Below, piece by piece: positions 20,675-39,844 of a stretch of 64,000 nt of DNA; position 1 is the stretch's first letter; the number at the start of each line of letters is the position of its first letter. Origin of the DNA: Blautia wexlerae DSM 19850 (GTDB lineage: Bacteria > Bacillota > Clostridia > Lachnospirales > Lachnospiraceae); contig NZ_CP102267.1 in NCBI RefSeq assembly GCF_025148125.1, forward strand, positions 716,001-780,000. The letters are read 5' to 3'. A model generated the notes under the pieces. That model ran no database searches and was not told the origin of the DNA. It was given only the letters and a program-made list of their open reading frames with translations. The position numbers were made by a program, and so were the translations under genes.

Positions 20675-20840
20675 CATTATCATATGCAGATTTTGTGTAT
20701 GGTAATGTGAGAGGGAATCAGGTGAAATGCCTGAACGGTTGCGGCCACTGTATACAGAAAAAAAGCGGGATTGTAATATGTCATTGCATAAATATGTGAG
20801 AAGGCGGAATCCGGCTGTCAGAGAGTATCTGGAAATATTT
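20675..20840 (+). promoter_or_regulatory. Cobalamin riboswitch aptamer
   Basis: The conserved core is present in order at 20711-20750: AGGGAA, then GGTGAAATGCC, then ACGG, then CGGCCACTG. A GAGAAG motif follows at 20798-20803 and a weak B12-box-like GTCAGAGAGTATCTGG at 20817-20832. A 5' hairpin (ATTATCATA with TGTATGGTAAT) fits the P2 arm. It precedes a terminator and then genes for a BtuFCD-like importer, so cobalamin binding should switch transport off. The last box matches the consensus poorly, whereas an exact one lies at 20919-20934, so the 3' border is uncertain. Confidence 0.85.
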
Positions 20841-20842
20841 CT

Positions 20843-20895
20843 GATACAACATTCATGAACTGCTGAAGCATGGATGTTGTATCAGTTTTTATTTT
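20843..20895 (+). terminator. Riboswitch-controlled terminator
   Basis: GATACAACAT (20843-20852) pairs with ATGTTGTATC (20874-20883), extended inward by CAT/ATG, followed by AGTTTTTATTTT. GTATC at 20825-20829 can pair instead with GATAC at 20843-20847, giving a possible switching helix. Confidence 0.8.
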
Positions 20896-20918
20896 GTGGA
20901 AATTTTCTGTGATCTGTG

Positions 20919-20934
20919 AGTCAGGAAACCTGCC
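20919..20934 (+). promoter_or_regulatory. Second, exact B12-box-like 16-mer downstream of the terminator
   Basis: AGTCAGGAAACCTGCC matches the published B12 box pattern (AGYCAGGANACCTGCC) at every position, yet lies after the terminator and before the binding-protein gene. It is also part of a small palindrome, GTCAGG...CCTGAC. Either it is the true 3' end of an aptamer with a large insertion, or a relic of a second riboswitch, or chance. Confidence 0.5.
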
Positions 20935-21066
20935 TGACAGCGTAAAGAAGGAGCTTCCGTAAAAAGTATCCGTTATTCTTATCACTTCTATTTTACTTTT
21001 TCTGAAGTCCCATCTTTTCGGTTACACGAACAGGTAAATAACATATACGAAAAGAGAGGAAGTCAA

Positions 21067-24296: not shown

Positions 24297-24500
24297 ATGA
24301 GTTTAGATAATAATTCTCATTCAGTGTTTTTGTTTGATTCTGGTTATGAAATATGGCAGAAAGATGCTGGACGATAAGATGTCAGAGAGAACAAAAGAAA
24401 TCTTTGAAATATAGCACCTGTTGAAACAATCCATCAGTATATAGAGAGTCAGGGTGAGAAAGATAAACCGGGCAGTAAAAATAAGGATCTATCCAAATAA
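24297..24500 (+). pseudogene. tnpA: Decayed IS200-type Y1 transposase
   Basis: Starts MSLDNNSHSVFL, the common N-terminus of IS200-like TnpA, then loses frame. DDKMSERTKEIFE appears at 24372-24415 and ends in a stop, after which an internal deletion jumps to the C-terminal part PVETIHQYIESQGEK at about 24419-24462. The conserved HUH motif and the catalytic tyrosine segment are gone, so the element cannot move on its own. The C-terminal remnant still overlaps the tnpB start as in intact elements. Confidence 0.75.
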
Positions 24501-25560
24501 AGAACAGATAACCCAGATAGAGAAGACGATCGGCTGCAGTCGTTTTCTCTATAACCGGATGCTTGCGGATAAGATCCGTCATTATCAGGAAGAAAAAAAG
24601 ATGCTGAAAAATACGCCGGCCGGATATAAAAAAGAATATCCATGGCTGAAAGAGGTAGATTCTCTTGCGCTGGCGAATGTACAGTTAAATCTGGAAGGGG
24701 CTTTCCGGAAATTTTTCCGGGAACCGGGAGTGGGATTTCCGCATTATAAATCAAAAAAACATTCGCGGAAATCCTATACAACGAATATGGTAAATGGGAA
24801 TATCTGTCTGCAGGACAGGTTCCTGAAACTGCCAAAGATGCAGCCGGTAAAAATAAAACTCCACCGTATGATCCCGGAGGGATGGAAGCTGAAATCAGTG
24901 ACTGTGAGCAGGGAACCATCCGGGAAATATTTTGCCAGCCTGCTGTTCGACTGTGAAAACCAAACAGCGGAGAAAAGACAGGCGGAAAAATTCCTGGGGA
25001 TGGATTTTGCCATGCATGGGATGTGTGTATTTTCTACCGGTGAAAGAGCCGGATATCCCATGTTCTACCGGAATGCAGAGAAAAAACTTGCCCGGGAACA
25101 GAGAAAGCTTTCCAGATGTGAAAAGGGCAGCCGTAACTATCAGAAACAGAAGAAAAAGGTTGCTTTATATCATGAAAAGATAAAGAACCAGAGGAAGGAT
25201 TTCCAGCATAAGCTCAGCCACAGCCTTGCAGAAGACTATGACGCAGTATGTGTGGAGGATCTGAACCTGAAGGGGATAGCCGGAGGCCTGCATTTCGGAA
25301 AAGGGATACAGGATAACGGATACGGTCAGTTCCTTTCCATGCTTGGATATAAGCTGGAAGAACGTGGAAAATATCTGATAAAAGTAGACAGATATTTTGC
25401 ATCCAGTAAGATATGCAGCGTATGCGGACATAAGAAGAAAGAGCTGGCATTATCAGAACGGATATACCTATGCGAATGTGGAAACCGGATGGACCGGGAT
25501 GTGAATGCGGCGGTCAATATTCTGAAAGAAGGAAAAAGAATATATAAAAAATGTGCATAA
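24454..25560 (+). CDS. tnpB: TnpB, RNA-guided endonuclease of the IS605 family
   Basis: A 368-aa protein starting at GTG 24454. The RuvC-like catalytic residues are all present: Asp184 in GMDFAMHG, Glu269 in VCVEDLNLKG, Asp349 in DRDVNAAVNIL. A zinc ribbon is formed by Cys321, Cys324, Cys340 and Cys342; the last pair is CEC rather than the usual CxxC. TnpB cuts DNA at sites next to a TAM using an RNA made from the element's right end, and so preserves the element at its site. Here it should still be active although its TnpA is dead. Family known; activity here inferred. Confidence 0.93.
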   Translation: MRKINRAVKIRIYPNKEQITQIEKTIGCSRFLYNRMLADKIRHYQEEKKMLKNTPAGYKKEYPWLKEVDSLALANVQLNLEGAFRKFFREPGVGFPHYKSKKHSRKSYTTNMVNGNICLQDRFLKLPKMQPVKIKLHRMIPEGWKLKSVTVSREPSGKYFASLLFDCENQTAEKRQAEKFLGMDFAMHGMCVFSTGERAGYPMFYRNAEKKLAREQRKLSRCEKGSRNYQKQKKKVALYHEKIKNQRKDFQHKLSHSLAEDYDAVCVEDLNLKGIAGGLHFGKGIQDNGYGQFLSMLGYKLEERGKYLIKVDRYFASSKICSVCGHKKKELALSERIYLCECGNRMDRDVNAAVNILKEGKRIYKKCA

Positions 25561-27904: not shown

Positions 27905-27999
27905 ATTAAAGTAGAACCATATTGGAATGTAAAGATTGATGCACTTATGGAAACGGTTAAAGAAATCCCATTAAAGTAGAACCATATTGGAATTATATA
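27905..27999 (+). CRISPR. Two-repeat CRISPR-like remnant, no cas genes
   Basis: A 30-base unit starting ATTAAAGTAGAACCATATTG at 27905 recurs at 27970, with 24 leading bases identical and the last 6 diverged, as terminal repeats often are. The intervening 35 bases (27935-27969) are unique, like a spacer. Unit length and sequence type resemble type I-B/III repeats of Firmicutes. Two units are weak proof of an array, and no cas gene is in the window. Confidence 0.4.
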
Positions 28000-28104
28000 G
28001 ATTCTTATGTTAAAATAGTTATTTAATTGATACAAATGATTAATTTTATTTAAGCCAATACGTATACATCAATTTATAAAGAAAAAGGAGCTTTTAAATA
28101 TACT

Positions 28105-30867
28105 ATGGAGAAACTTGTCATTGGTATCCTTGCCCACGTAGATGCAGGTAAGACTACGTTGTCGGAGGGGATTTTATATTTAACGGGAAAAATCCGTAAG
28201 CTGGGGCGTGTGGATCATAAGGATGCGTATCTTGACACCTATAACCTGGAGCGGGAGCGTGGAATTACGATTTTTTCCAAGCAGGCGGAGTTTGAATTGG
28301 GAAACAGGGGGATAACTCTGCTAGATACGCCGGGGCATGTGGATTTCTCGGCGGAAATGGAGAGGACACTGCAGGTTCTGGATTATGCGATTCTTGTGAT
28401 AAATGGAGCGGATGGTGTGCAGGGGCATACTATGACCTTATGGAGACTTCTGGCAAGATACCAGATTCCGACGTTCCTGTTTATCAATAAAATGGATCAG
28501 GACGGAACTGATAAAGAGAAACTTCTGGCAGAATTAAAGAAGCGATTAAGTGATAATTGCGCTGATTTCACCTGGGAAAACACAAGTGGAATAGAAAATA
28601 GTACTGACGAAACAGCAGAGAAAGCAGAAGATGAAATATCAGATCTGCAGTCTCGGTTTCTGGAAGATATTTCCGTCTGCGATGAAGAACTGCTTGAAAA
28701 ATATCTGGAAACAGAGGAAATATCAACATCAGATATCCGAAAAGTAATCAAAGAGCGAAAACTTTTCCCATGTTTCTTTGGCTCTGCGCTAAAAATGACA
28801 GGTGTAGAAGAATTTCTCCATGGTTTGGAAAAATACTGCGAGACACCGACATATCCATCTGAGTTCGGGGCAAAAGTATTCAAGATTGCCAGAGACGATC
28901 AGGGCAATCGTTTAAGCTATATGAAAATCACAGGTGGAACATTGAAGGTGAAGGAACTTCTCACAGATACAGAGAAAGCGGATCAGATCCGTATCTATTC
29001 CGGTGCGAAATTTGAGCTTGCAAAGGAAGCTCCTGCAGGAACTATCTGTGCAGTGACCGGCCTTTCCCAGACACATCCGGGACAGGGATTTGGGATTGAA
29101 CGGGAATCTGAGATGCCGGTTCTGGAACCTGTATTAAATTACAGAATTCTGCTTCCTGAGGACTGTGATGTTCACCAGATGCTTAAGAAACTCAAAGAGT
29201 TGGAAGAGGAGGAACCGGAACTTCACATTGTATGGAACGAACAGCTTGGAGAAATCCATGCCATGCTGATGGGTGAGGTTCAGATCGAGATATTAAAGCA
29301 TCTGATCTGGGAGCGTTTCCATGTAGCAGTAGAGTTTGGCACAGGAAATATCGTATATAAAGAAACAATCGCAGAGCCGGTAGAAGGTGTAGGCCATTTT
29401 GAACCGCTGCGTCATTATGCAGAAGTACACTTGCTTCTGGAACCCGGAGAACCGGGAAGCGGTCTGCAGTTTTTTACTGCATGCAGTGAGGATGTGCTGG
29501 ACCGTAACTGGCAGCGTCTGATTCTGACTCATCTGGAAGAACGGGAGCACCCGGGAGTACTGACCGGTTCTCCGATTACGGATATGCAGATTACACTGAT
29601 CACAGGGCGAGCTCATCTGAAACATACAGAGGGCGGCGATTTCCGGCAGGCGACGTACAGGGCTGTGCGTCAGGGATTAAAGAAAGCAAAGAGTGTCCTG
29701 CTTGAGCCATATTATGAGTTCAGACTTGAGATTCCGGGGGATATGATAGGGCGTGCTATGACTGACATTCAGAAAATGAATGGAACCTTCCAGCAGCCGG
29801 AAGCGGATGAGGATGATATGATGATATTGAAGGGGAGTGCACCTGTATCAATGATGCGAGATTATCAGACACAGGTAACCTCCTATACAAAGGGACGGGG
29901 CAGATTATTCTGTTCATTGAAGGGCTATGCCCCATGTCAGAATCAGGATGAAATTGTAGAGGAGATTGGATATGATTCCGAACGTGACCTGGACAATCCC
30001 ACGGGTTCTGTATTCTGTGCTCATGGAGCTGGATTTGTGGTGCCATGGTATGAAGTAGAGGATTATATGCACTTAGAAGGGATTGACGAGTCTGAACTGG
30101 GGAATGCCATACCGGATAGTGAAGAAAGTATAGCAGGAAACAGGAACAGTAACAATCAGACAGATTCAGGTTATCGTCCACCCAGGAATGCCGGCGTAGG
30201 AAGCTATGAGGATGAAGAAGAGCTGAAAGCCATTTTCGAGCGCACATTCGGACCGGTCAAGCGTTACAAAGAACCACAGTTTAAGAGAACATTTTCTGCA
30301 AAATCTGACAGCGGCAGCTATTACCGCAACAGTTTTTCTGCTAAGAAGAAAGAAAAAGAATATCTCCTTGTAGATGGCTATAACATCATCTATGCCTGGG
30401 AAGATTTAAAAGAGCTGGCAGATGCAAACCTCCATGCAGCTCAGACAAAACTGATGGATATTCTGAGCAACTATCAGGGCTTTAAGAAATGTACGTTAAT
30501 TCTTGTATTTGATGCTTACAAGATAGAGGGCCATGCAGAGGAAGTGATCACCTATCATAACATTCATGTAGTTTACACCAAAGAAGCTGAGACAGCGGAT
30601 CAGTACATTGAGAAAACGGTTCATAAGATTGGCCGGGAAAATCAGGTAACGGTAGCAACATCCGATGGACTGGAGCAGATCATCATCATGGGACAGGGTG
30701 CCCACCGTATGTCTGCCAGAGGTCTTCGGGACGAAATAAAAGCTACAGAAAATCAGATCCGCCAGCAATGGCATGAGAAACGTCAGAGCAGTAAAAATTA
30801 TCTGATCGACAATATTTCTGATGAAATGGCACAATATATGAAAGAGAAACGACTTGGAAAACAGTAA
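28105..30867 (+). CDS. Tet(M)-like ribosome-binding GTPase fused to a Rae1/YacP-type NYN RNase domain
   Basis: A 920-aa protein. Residues 1 to about 650 are a translational GTPase of the EF-G/ribosomal protection type: AHVDAGKT (P loop, about 11-18), RERGIT (switch I), DTPGHVDF, NKMD, then domains II-V including EVQIEILK. A variable linker at about 670-745 is rich in Ser/Asn/Gly. Residues about 750-885 form a NYN/PIN domain: YLLVDGYNIIYAWEDL with the acidic Asp, LILVFDAYK, ADQYIEKTVHK, VATSDGLEQ. That is the fold of YacP/Rae1, an RNase that cleaves mRNA in the ribosomal A site. AAGGAG lies 15 bases before the ATG. greA follows 15 bases after the stop. Confidence 0.9.
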   Translation: MEKLVIGILAHVDAGKTTLSEGILYLTGKIRKLGRVDHKDAYLDTYNLERERGITIFSKQAEFELGNRGITLLDTPGHVDFSAEMERTLQVLDYAILVINGADGVQGHTMTLWRLLARYQIPTFLFINKMDQDGTDKEKLLAELKKRLSDNCADFTWENTSGIENSTDETAEKAEDEISDLQSRFLEDISVCDEELLEKYLETEEISTSDIRKVIKERKLFPCFFGSALKMTGVEEFLHGLEKYCETPTYPSEFGAKVFKIARDDQGNRLSYMKITGGTLKVKELLTDTEKADQIRIYSGAKFELAKEAPAGTICAVTGLSQTHPGQGFGIERESEMPVLEPVLNYRILLPEDCDVHQMLKKLKELEEEEPELHIVWNEQLGEIHAMLMGEVQIEILKHLIWERFHVAVEFGTGNIVYKETIAEPVEGVGHFEPLRHYAEVHLLLEPGEPGSGLQFFTACSEDVLDRNWQRLILTHLEEREHPGVLTGSPITDMQITLITGRAHLKHTEGGDFRQATYRAVRQGLKKAKSVLLEPYYEFRLEIPGDMIGRAMTDIQKMNGTFQQPEADEDDMMILKGSAPVSMMRDYQTQVTSYTKGRGRLFCSLKGYAPCQNQDEIVEEIGYDSERDLDNPTGSVFCAHGAGFVVPWYEVEDYMHLEGIDESELGNAIPDSEESIAGNRNSNNQTDSGYRPPRNAGVGSYEDEEELKAIFERTFGPVKRYKEPQFKRTFSAKSDSGSYYRNSFSAKKKEKEYLLVDGYNIIYAWEDLKELADANLHAAQTKLMDILSNYQGFKKCTLILVFDAYKIEGHAEEVITYHNIHVVYTKEAETADQYIEKTVHKIGRENQVTVATSDGLEQIIIMGQGAHRMSARGLRDEIKATENQIRQQWHEKRQSSKNYLIDNISDEMAQYMKEKRLGKQ

Positions 30868-30882
30868 AAGGGAGATGCAGTC

Positions 30883-31383
30883 ATGAAAGAAAAGCTTACA
30901 CAGAAGGATGTTGAGAAAATCCAGCAGGAGATTGACCATCGCAAGCTGGTTGTACGAAAAGAGGCAATCGAAGCTGTAAAAGAAGCAAGAGCCCAGGGAG
31001 ACCTGAGTGAGAATTTTGAGTATTATGCGGCCAAGAAGCATAAGAATCAGAATGAAAGCCGTATCCGCTACCTTGAGAATATGCTGAAAACAGCAACCAT
31101 TGTTTCTGATGATTCCAAAGACGATGAAGTTGGAATGGATGATATTGTAGAGGTATATTTCGAGGAAGACGATGAGATTGAGAAATACAAACTGGTTACT
31201 TCCATAAGAGGAAACTCCATGGAAAACCGCATCAGCATTGAATCTCCCATTGGTATGGCTCTGAAAGGTCACAAGGTTGGAGACAGAGTGGAAGTAAAGG
31301 TAAATGATAACTACAGTTATTTCCTGGAAATCCGTTCTATTGATAAGACTGGTTCCGAGGATGAAGAAATCCGCGGATTCTGA
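30883..31383 (+). CDS. greA: Transcription elongation factor GreA-type
   Basis: A 166-aa protein of GreA length. The N-terminal coiled coil holds the catalytic tip AQGDLSENFEYYAAK (about residues 43-57), whose acidic pair coordinates magnesium in the polymerase channel; the C-terminal FKBP-like domain has SPIGMALKGHKVGD. It rescues backtracked RNA polymerase. It lies 15 bases after the GTPase-NYN gene, so factors for stalled polymerase and stalled ribosome are apparently co-expressed. A second GreA may exist elsewhere. Confidence 0.93.
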   Translation: MKEKLTQKDVEKIQQEIDHRKLVVRKEAIEAVKEARAQGDLSENFEYYAAKKHKNQNESRIRYLENMLKTATIVSDDSKDDEVGMDDIVEVYFEEDDEIEKYKLVTSIRGNSMENRISIESPIGMALKGHKVGDRVEVKVNDNYSYFLEIRSIDKTGSEDEEIRGF

Positions 31384-39655: not shown

Positions 39656-39661
39656 GAATAT

Positions 39662-39812
39662 CCGGGTTTCAAAGGCAAAAAGTCGTTCGTGCTTGCGCGA
39701 TAAGACTTTTAGACTTGGAAACCGCCAGACATGAGGAAGTAGCGATTTACGAAGTAAATCAGCGGATTCCGAATGGCTGGAGGATTGCGGGAGCGAAGCG
39801 TAGCAATCCGTA
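39662..39812 (+). repeat. Multi-hairpin intergenic element
   Basis: Four inverted repeats follow one another: GGTTTC/GAAACC (39665, 39718) around AAAAGTC/GACTTTT (39678, 39704), GATTTAC/GTAAATC (39744-39760), and GGATTGC/GCAATCC (39782-39809). No ORF is likely. It resembles a REP-like or palindromic repeat inserted between the binding-protein and permease genes. Confidence 0.5.
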
Positions 39813-39844
39813 GATATGGTATAACTTACAAAGGAGGTATTTAT

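Follow-up and report, generated by a model that had tools for sequence, protein, structure and literature searches.

A Rae1-type ribonuclease domain fused to an EF-G-like GTPase seems to have replaced stand-alone rae1 in many Clostridia

The aiming of bacterial nucleases at stuck ribosomes is only partly understood. SmrB/MutS2 and RelE-type factors cut mRNA on ribosomes, which is a likeness to the role that we propose below for a fusion protein, and to our knowledge none of these cutters carries a translational GTPase. Among the closest described systems is Rae1 (YacP), which, according to passages in two papers, acts on B. subtilis ribosomes by attacking the mRNA in their A site (PMC12320835, PMC10100781); the former also mentions RelE. 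PMC11780869 names S1025 as a Rae1 substrate. Rae1 of B. subtilis stands alone, with a PDB chain of 181 residues, and its gene lies beside sigH, whereas the NYN domain described here is the C-terminal domain of a GTPase and is encoded at unrelated loci. The joined architecture itself is already known, given that a section of Atkinson 2015 (PMC4342817) presents it in ten Clostridiales, terms the products Tet proteins, and suggests RNase-based resistance. Our literature search, whose reach was limited on Rae1 distribution, found no functional study of this architecture, and the fusion, or its replacement of rae1, may already be noted in Condon 2018. What is added here is a GTPase that, as judged by its sequence, is not of the Tet type, the retention of four Asp residues, the replacement of rae1, and a predicted disordered tether with a conserved motif.

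The gene under study lies in a window of 64,000 nucleotides from Blautia wexlerae DSM 19850, by which we mean the whole stretch of DNA that was analysed. Its main features are as follows.

28105..30867, + strand: fusion gene, 920 aa, encoding a translational GTPase, a linker and a NYN_YacP (Rae1) domain (ORF list, translation, Pfam)
28117..28839, + strand: G domain with P-loop, switch and NKMD motifs, residues 5-245 (Pfam GTP_EFTU)
28864..29073, + strand: EF-G domain II, residues 254-323 (Pfam)
29125..29340, + strand: EF-G domain III, residues 341-412 (Pfam)
29347..29691, + strand: EF-G domain IV, residues 415-529 (Pfam)
29695..29946, + strand: EF-G domain V, residues 531-614 (Pfam)
29935..30072, + strand: domain V extension with C611, C638, W648 and H656 (alignment of 47 fusions)
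30073..30363, + strand: linker, residues 657-753 (alignment, AlphaFold2)
30364..30849, + strand: NYN_YacP / Rae1 ribonuclease domain, residues 754-915, with Asp757, Asp803, Asp832 and Asp854 (Pfam, solved-structure match, alignment)

The first-pass annotation had described a single uninterrupted 920-aa frame with intact GTPase motifs, in which EF-G-like domains are followed by a NYN domain, and this description holds in each of its parts. The frame at 28105-30867 on the + strand runs from an ATG start to a TAA stop with zero internal stops, and AHVDAGKTT, RERGIT, DTPGHVDF and NKMD are all found in its translation. Every Pfam match exceeds its curated cut-off, including GTP_EFTU at residues 5-245 (E 4e-51), EF-G_D2 at 254-323, EFG_III at 341-412, EFG_IV at 415-529, EFG_C at 531-614, and NYN_YacP at 754-915 (E 2.5e-54; 184 bits against a cut-off of 24.6). 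A G domain, domains II-V and the GTPase motifs, which together characterize an EF-G-type protein, are therefore all present. Residues D74-H78 of the G domain are invariant in an alignment of 89 fusions, made up of the query together with 88 proteins out of the 360 listed. The domain V extension is likewise conserved (C611 in 47/47 fusions, C638 in 46/47, W648 in 47/47 and H656 in 44/47), and its residues are common to separate GTPases of ~650 aa too. An AlphaFold2 model of the whole protein (mean pLDDT 76.5, pTM 0.54) has an EF-G-like structure over residues 1-624 when compared by Foldseek and VIA-align, whose lists are filled by this larger domain and show the GTPase part alone; the NYN fold was judged from sequence.

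The NYN half aligns to the solved YacP/Rae1 structures of B. subtilis (PDB 5mq8 and 5mq9, E about 8e-26), with which it shares both the NYN_YacP domain and the Asp positions. The possibility had been raised earlier that this half might lack the conserved acidic residues. Instead, Asp757, Asp803, Asp832 and Asp854 are all kept in 64/64 fusion rows, a count that leaves out NYN pieces shorter than 120 residues, duplicates and one split gene (L039) and includes one genome twice, and they are equally kept in 19/19 separate NYNs. In the smaller table of 47 fusions, one NYN cut by a contig end (L048, absent from the 64-row table) appears as a gap, giving 46/47 for D854. Asp757 aligns with Rae1 Asp7 and Asp832 with Rae1 Asp81, which we take to be the pair of residues that have been mutated and tested in Rae1. 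Some positions that are fixed in 19/19 separate NYNs are looser in the fusions (e.g., R868 in 45/64 and E857 in 49/64), which speaks against a wholly unchanged role for the NYN half. In a quick tree, stand-alone NYNs from the same family fall near the fusion NYNs, and the tree is poorly resolved (13 of 81 inner branches starred), its resolution being too low for dating the fusion or for choosing between one capture and several.

The architecture is far more widespread than the ten Clostridiales noted earlier. Our family sample consisted of 150 genomes, one per genus and with the window's own included, and classes were set by frame length, by the loci read and by a GTPase search. NYN_YacP occurs in 135/150 of these genomes, of which 125 are fusion-type, nine carry a stand-alone NYN (G059, G024, G099, G007, G020, G016, G068, G054 and G029), and one is cut by a contig end (G128). 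All 125 fusion-type genomes have a GTPase match, with several of them cut by contig ends or interrupted in drafts (e.g., G042, G095, G140, G006 and G098). No family genome has two NYNs apart from G039, where a second piece opens a contig and neither rlmB nor sigH was found within 4 kb of it, and G076, where the second piece scores below the cut-off. The GTPase is absent from 15/15 family genomes that lack the NYN, and the loss of one fused gene explains this joint absence.

A class sample of 196 genomes, each at least 90% complete and again including the window's own, gave NYN_YacP in 133/196, with 74 fusion-type genomes (70 of them with frames of at least 600 aa) and 59 stand-alone ones; none of the 133 has two NYN_YacP matches over the cut-off. 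Apart from the window's genome, the GTPase is present in 73/73 class genomes whose NYN is not encoded in a short frame of its own; the NYN frame reaches at least 600 aa in 69 of them, the other four being split or truncated at contig ends. A scan of a species-level collection returned at least 596 related stretches, the best 80 of which all align into the NYN part (residue 878 or beyond); named hosts among those listed include Anaerostipes butyraticus, Mediterraneibacter massiliensis, Desulfosporosinus acididurans, Anaerovorax odorimutans and Clostridium punense. These searches supply the measure of spread that had been called for, and they also dispose of the earlier concern that the two parts were joined by a sequencing fusion, an explanation that we reject given a one-contig genome with a sole NYN and an architecture that recurs in most family members sampled.

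The genomes with fusions differ from the others at the locus where rae1 would be expected. Stand-alone NYN genes have rlmB directly upstream in 7/9 genomes of the same family, and sigH adjoins in 10/10 class loci fetched, these ten being the best-scoring of the 59; mrnC lies nearby. The names rlmB, sigH and mrnC are putative assignments from the B. subtilis gene order and from similarity among the loci. That sigH follows rae1 in B. subtilis is evident from strain names in a part of PMC8266666. For comparison, we chose 20 genomes for few contigs or high completeness from the 197 fusion genomes in the two samples, and the rlmB locus is without a NYN in 20/20. In 17/20, sigH follows rlmB across a gap of at most 591 bp (115 bp in the window's genome), and in the other three no sigH was found near rlmB even when longer stretches were included. 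The window's genome, assembled as one 4.69 Mb contig, yields exactly one NYN_YacP match, which is the fusion, and its rlmB-sigH locus lacks rae1. Because the fusion is the only NYN in the genome and all 20 rlmB loci examined lack one, these data show, at the level of gene content, that the fusion stands in for stand-alone rae1. More broadly, it seems to have replaced the stand-alone RNase gene in many Clostridia, gut species included, and genomic evidence supports the view that the NYN half is the cell's Rae1.

The company that stand-alone rae1 keeps, adjoining rlmB and near mrnC, also fits an alternative in which the protein is an RNA maturation factor, whose NYN domain, positioned by the GTPase, would trim rRNA or tRNA on ribosomes that are being assembled or recycled. 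According to a portion of PMC4342817, rRNA/tRNA maturation was the first role proposed for NYN domains. However, passages in PMC10100781 and PMC12320835 describe Rae1 as translation-dependent and as acting on mRNA, and we consider a maturation role improbable.

The nature of the GTPase half bears on the published suggestion that the protein is a tetracycline ribosomal protection protein whose RNase aids resistance. Among solved structures its best matches are TetO (266 bits) and TetM (258 bits), and some records of the architecture are named as members of a TetM/TetW/TetO/TetS family (e.g., H2; five among the 360 listed, most of which are nameless). However, EF-G matches nearly as well (256.7 bits), and 'translation factor GTPase family protein' is the name given to other records. 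Furthermore, the half scores 449 bits with the NCBI tet_protect model NF012153, against a cut-off of 775, and 301 bits with the TetM/W model NF033148, against a cut-off of 1100, whereas a control Tet gene (L116) passes both with 852.6 and 1308.5 bits. Its presence in 125/150 sampled genera of one family is also more like that of a core gene.

Phylogeny points in the same direction. A maximum-likelihood tree was built from 60 GTPases, and in it 31 fusions group with 18 unfused proteins in one clade (bootstrap/SH-aLRT 100/100), outside which fall three Tet references and six Tet-like proteins. Nested within this clade is a fusion clade (100/99) with only two unfused members, namely the split gene L039 and a plasmid gene of Ligilactobacillus salivarius (L128) that encodes a fusion-clade GTPase without an attached NYN. 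The tree omits 17 of the 77 rows of a quick tree that agrees with it; seven ORFs with fewer than 560 aligned GTPase residues had been left out of the quick tree, as had partial, duplicate or otherwise different GTPases (L001-L030, L051, L058, L118-L121, L123, L124 and L126). Because the clade is separate at 100/100, has unfused sisters and lies outside the Tet references, the GTPase half is, as judged by its sequence, its own subfamily of EF-G-like factors. The window's genome also encodes other EF-G-like translational GTPases (names inferred from length and score). Relative to EF-G and EF-G2, the fusion has its own clade, its own domain IV tip (core HxKHTEGGDF) and a NYN tail, and the EF-G-like genes are separate in the genome. 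On phage contigs, each of the best two matches (L242 and L243) is a GTPase part lying at the start of its contig, and no NYN was matched there.

Two loops at the tip of domain IV further separate the fusions from Tet proteins.

29404..29424, + strand: domain IV tip loop PLRHYAE, residues 434-440, with His437 in 47/47 fusions (alignment)
29605..29643, + strand: domain IV tip loop GRAHLKHTEGGDF, residues 501-513 (alignment including TetO/TetM)

In the second loop, His507 is present in 47/47 fusions, and His504 and Lys506 are each present in 45/47, within a consensus of G[RK]AHxKHTEGGDF that has few exceptions. All four residues (His437, His504, Lys506 and His507) are kept in 17 sister-clade GTPases, and the L. 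salivarius protein deviates at positions 504 and 506. A part of Atkinson 2015 (PMC4342817) states that Tet tip loops touch and dislodge tetracycline, and the corresponding SP[VA]ST tip is found in 3/3 Tet references and in 0/47 fusions. Because the tip sequence differs in this manner, the fusion GTPases are unlikely to displace the drug the Tet way. The fusion therefore differs from Tet(M), Tet(O) and TetB(P) in tip loops, clade, curated score cut-offs, the C611/C638 extension and the NYN domain, and it departs from the Tet class assigned to it in the 2015 paper in that its GTPase is placed away from the Tet references and has no Tet tip, its spread is far wider, and it stands in for rae1. We reject membership in the Tet resistance family on the basis of the NCBI cut-offs, tree placement and tip residues, and we give very little credence to a resistance function. 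By the same measures, the term 'ribosomal-protection type' used in the first-pass annotation is not supported, and no positive evidence emerged from cut-offs, tree or tip for its idea that drug-bound ribosomes are cleared. Records of the architecture that are named as tetracycline resistance are thus not members by these tests, which matters for resistome counts.

These observations lead us to a model whose chances we judge to be evenly balanced, in which the fusion would be this lineage's Rae1, a ribosome-dependent mRNA endonuclease that is brought by a GTPase of its own subfamily to ribosomes with an empty A site, where the NYN domain then cuts. The GTPase half would bind such ribosomes, and the His/Lys tip of domain IV may probe the decoding centre. 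An EF-G-like factor occupies the A site itself. Simultaneous delivery of the nuclease to the A site is awkward because the EF-G-like body would fill it, and a sequential order of binding, hydrolysis, withdrawal and cutting is favoured because both halves cannot easily fill the site together. Probably after GTP hydrolysis and withdrawal of domain IV, the NYN half, carried on a predicted flexible tether of 110 or more residues, would cleave the mRNA in or close to the A site. The cut would then free the stalled ribosome for tmRNA rescue and start decay of the mRNA. If so, Clostridia with the fusion may use a GTPase to send an RNase to stuck ribosomes. An mRNA-cutting domain is here tied to a GTPase, with the free form gone in the genomes examined, which makes GTPase gating of mRNA cleavage directly testable.

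It is also conceivable that two housekeeping activities were joined for co-expression, such that an ordinary Rae1 and a GTPase with an unrelated EF-G- or EF4-like job share a tether that has no mechanistic role. Consistent with this, separate members of the GTPase's wider clade (E up to 1e-80) occur in 5/63 NYN-less class genomes, and the NYN occurs without the GTPase in 53/59 class genomes with a separate NYN. The former group and the L. salivarius gene are a point against obligate pairing. There is also no excess co-occurrence of separate GTPases with separate NYNs, given that the GTPase is found in 6/59 separate-NYN and 5/63 NYN-less class genomes (Fisher p 0.76, computed with 64 NYN-less genomes where the tally is 63), and the joint function of the two halves therefore gains no independent support from this comparison. 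However, the architecture persists across many families of the class, the fusion is present where separate rae1 is missing, and the linker holds a conserved motif that a mere joint would not need. With these points on each side, we consider a joint of convenience doubtful.

The linker motif is the following feature.

30220..30249, + strand: conserved linker motif ELKAIFERTF, residues 706-715, within a short helix predicted at low confidence (alignments, pattern, AlphaFold2)

Between the last residue of domain V and the NYN domain lie 110 to 249 residues in 47 fusions. Although this segment had been called a Ser/Asn/Gly linker, its most frequent residues over the 47 are E, K, A, R and S. In the AlphaFold2 model, residues 665-702 and 715-749 fall below pLDDT 50, which predicts disorder, and the motif is contained in a helix predicted with low confidence at 701-715. 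Its general form is E-[LI]-x-x-I-x-x-x-T-[YF], and E706, L707, I710, F711, T714 and G716, which are motif residues and neighbours, are invariant in the 89-row alignment. A strict pattern is matched by 14/47 fusions. A loosened pattern is matched by 40/47 of these more diverse fusions against 0.03 expected in shuffled linkers, a fitted count in that the pattern was loosened after the misses of the strict version were inspected. By the loosened pattern, the motif precedes the NYN domain by 40 to 73 residues, and most of the misses show variants of it by eye. Our guess is that the motif is a docking element. We can speculate that the fusion might be a GTP-gated no-go-decay factor, whose His/Lys tip senses the empty A site, which hands over to the tethered Rae1 after hydrolysis with the linker motif docking, and which displaced free Rae1 across much of Clostridia; its existence would imply that free Rae1 elsewhere also works with a translational GTPase. 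This fuller scheme is tentative, and we think it rather unlikely to hold as a whole.

The surroundings of the gene include four additional features.

30883..31383, + strand: greA, 15 bp downstream of the fusion gene (ORF list, Pfam)
28085..28090, + strand: Shine-Dalgarno-like AAGGAG, 14 nt before the ATG (by eye)
27905..27928, + strand: 24-bp direct repeat, copy 1, upstream of the fusion gene (repeat search)
27970..27993, + strand: 24-bp direct repeat, copy 2, upstream of the fusion gene (repeat search)

The adjacency of greA at 15 bp, from which a partner in the same transcript had been proposed, is real, but the partnership is not borne out by other genomes. Of the 67 other fused loci, all but one include at least some sequence downstream (in part less than 450 bp for four of these 66), and greA is directly downstream in none of the 66, leading us to reject a conserved link; one of them has a greA-like gene 1,140 bp away. 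Likewise, no neighbour family recurs at more than 6 of the 61 loci compared, except for rlmB, mrnC, cysS and the genes around them, which lie beside stand-alone NYNs. Upstream of the gene in the window are the Shine-Dalgarno-like sequence and the two copies of the direct repeat.

Upstream of the fusion gene lies a 24-bp direct repeat, the two copies of which are identical and start 65 bp from each other. A genome-wide search with its 23-base core, allowing up to two mismatches, found no other copy. The repeat is a candidate regulatory site, and this role is possible. It is listed here with other elements of the window.

Elements in the window
20683-20951, cobalamin riboswitch (Rfam)
24454-25560, putative TnpB-like transposon protein, a few kb upstream of the fusion gene (by eye)
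27905-27928 and 27970-27993, two copies of the 24-bp direct repeat
39657-39818, Clostridiales-1 sRNA (Rfam)

Near two stand-alone NYN genes, at loci L031 (genome G059) and L035 (genome G020), none of the usual neighbors rlmB, mrnC and sigH was found. These NYN proteins may be nucleases that were released from an earlier fusion. The NYN of L031 groups among those of the fusions in a tree that is weak.

At four loci from draft genomes (L039, L153, L154 and L043), the fusion gene is split over adjacent or overlapping frames, which may reflect sequencing error, real fission or recoding, each being possible.

A GTPase of the fusion clade that has no NYN domain is encoded on a Ligilactobacillus salivarius plasmid (L128, 5986-7920). 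Its gene adjoins rpsN (S14), its product is labeled as TetM/W/O/S family, and 33 Ligilactobacillus plasmid records gave a match. The separate GTPase of ~650 aa is present twice in one genome, G255 (L103 and L104).
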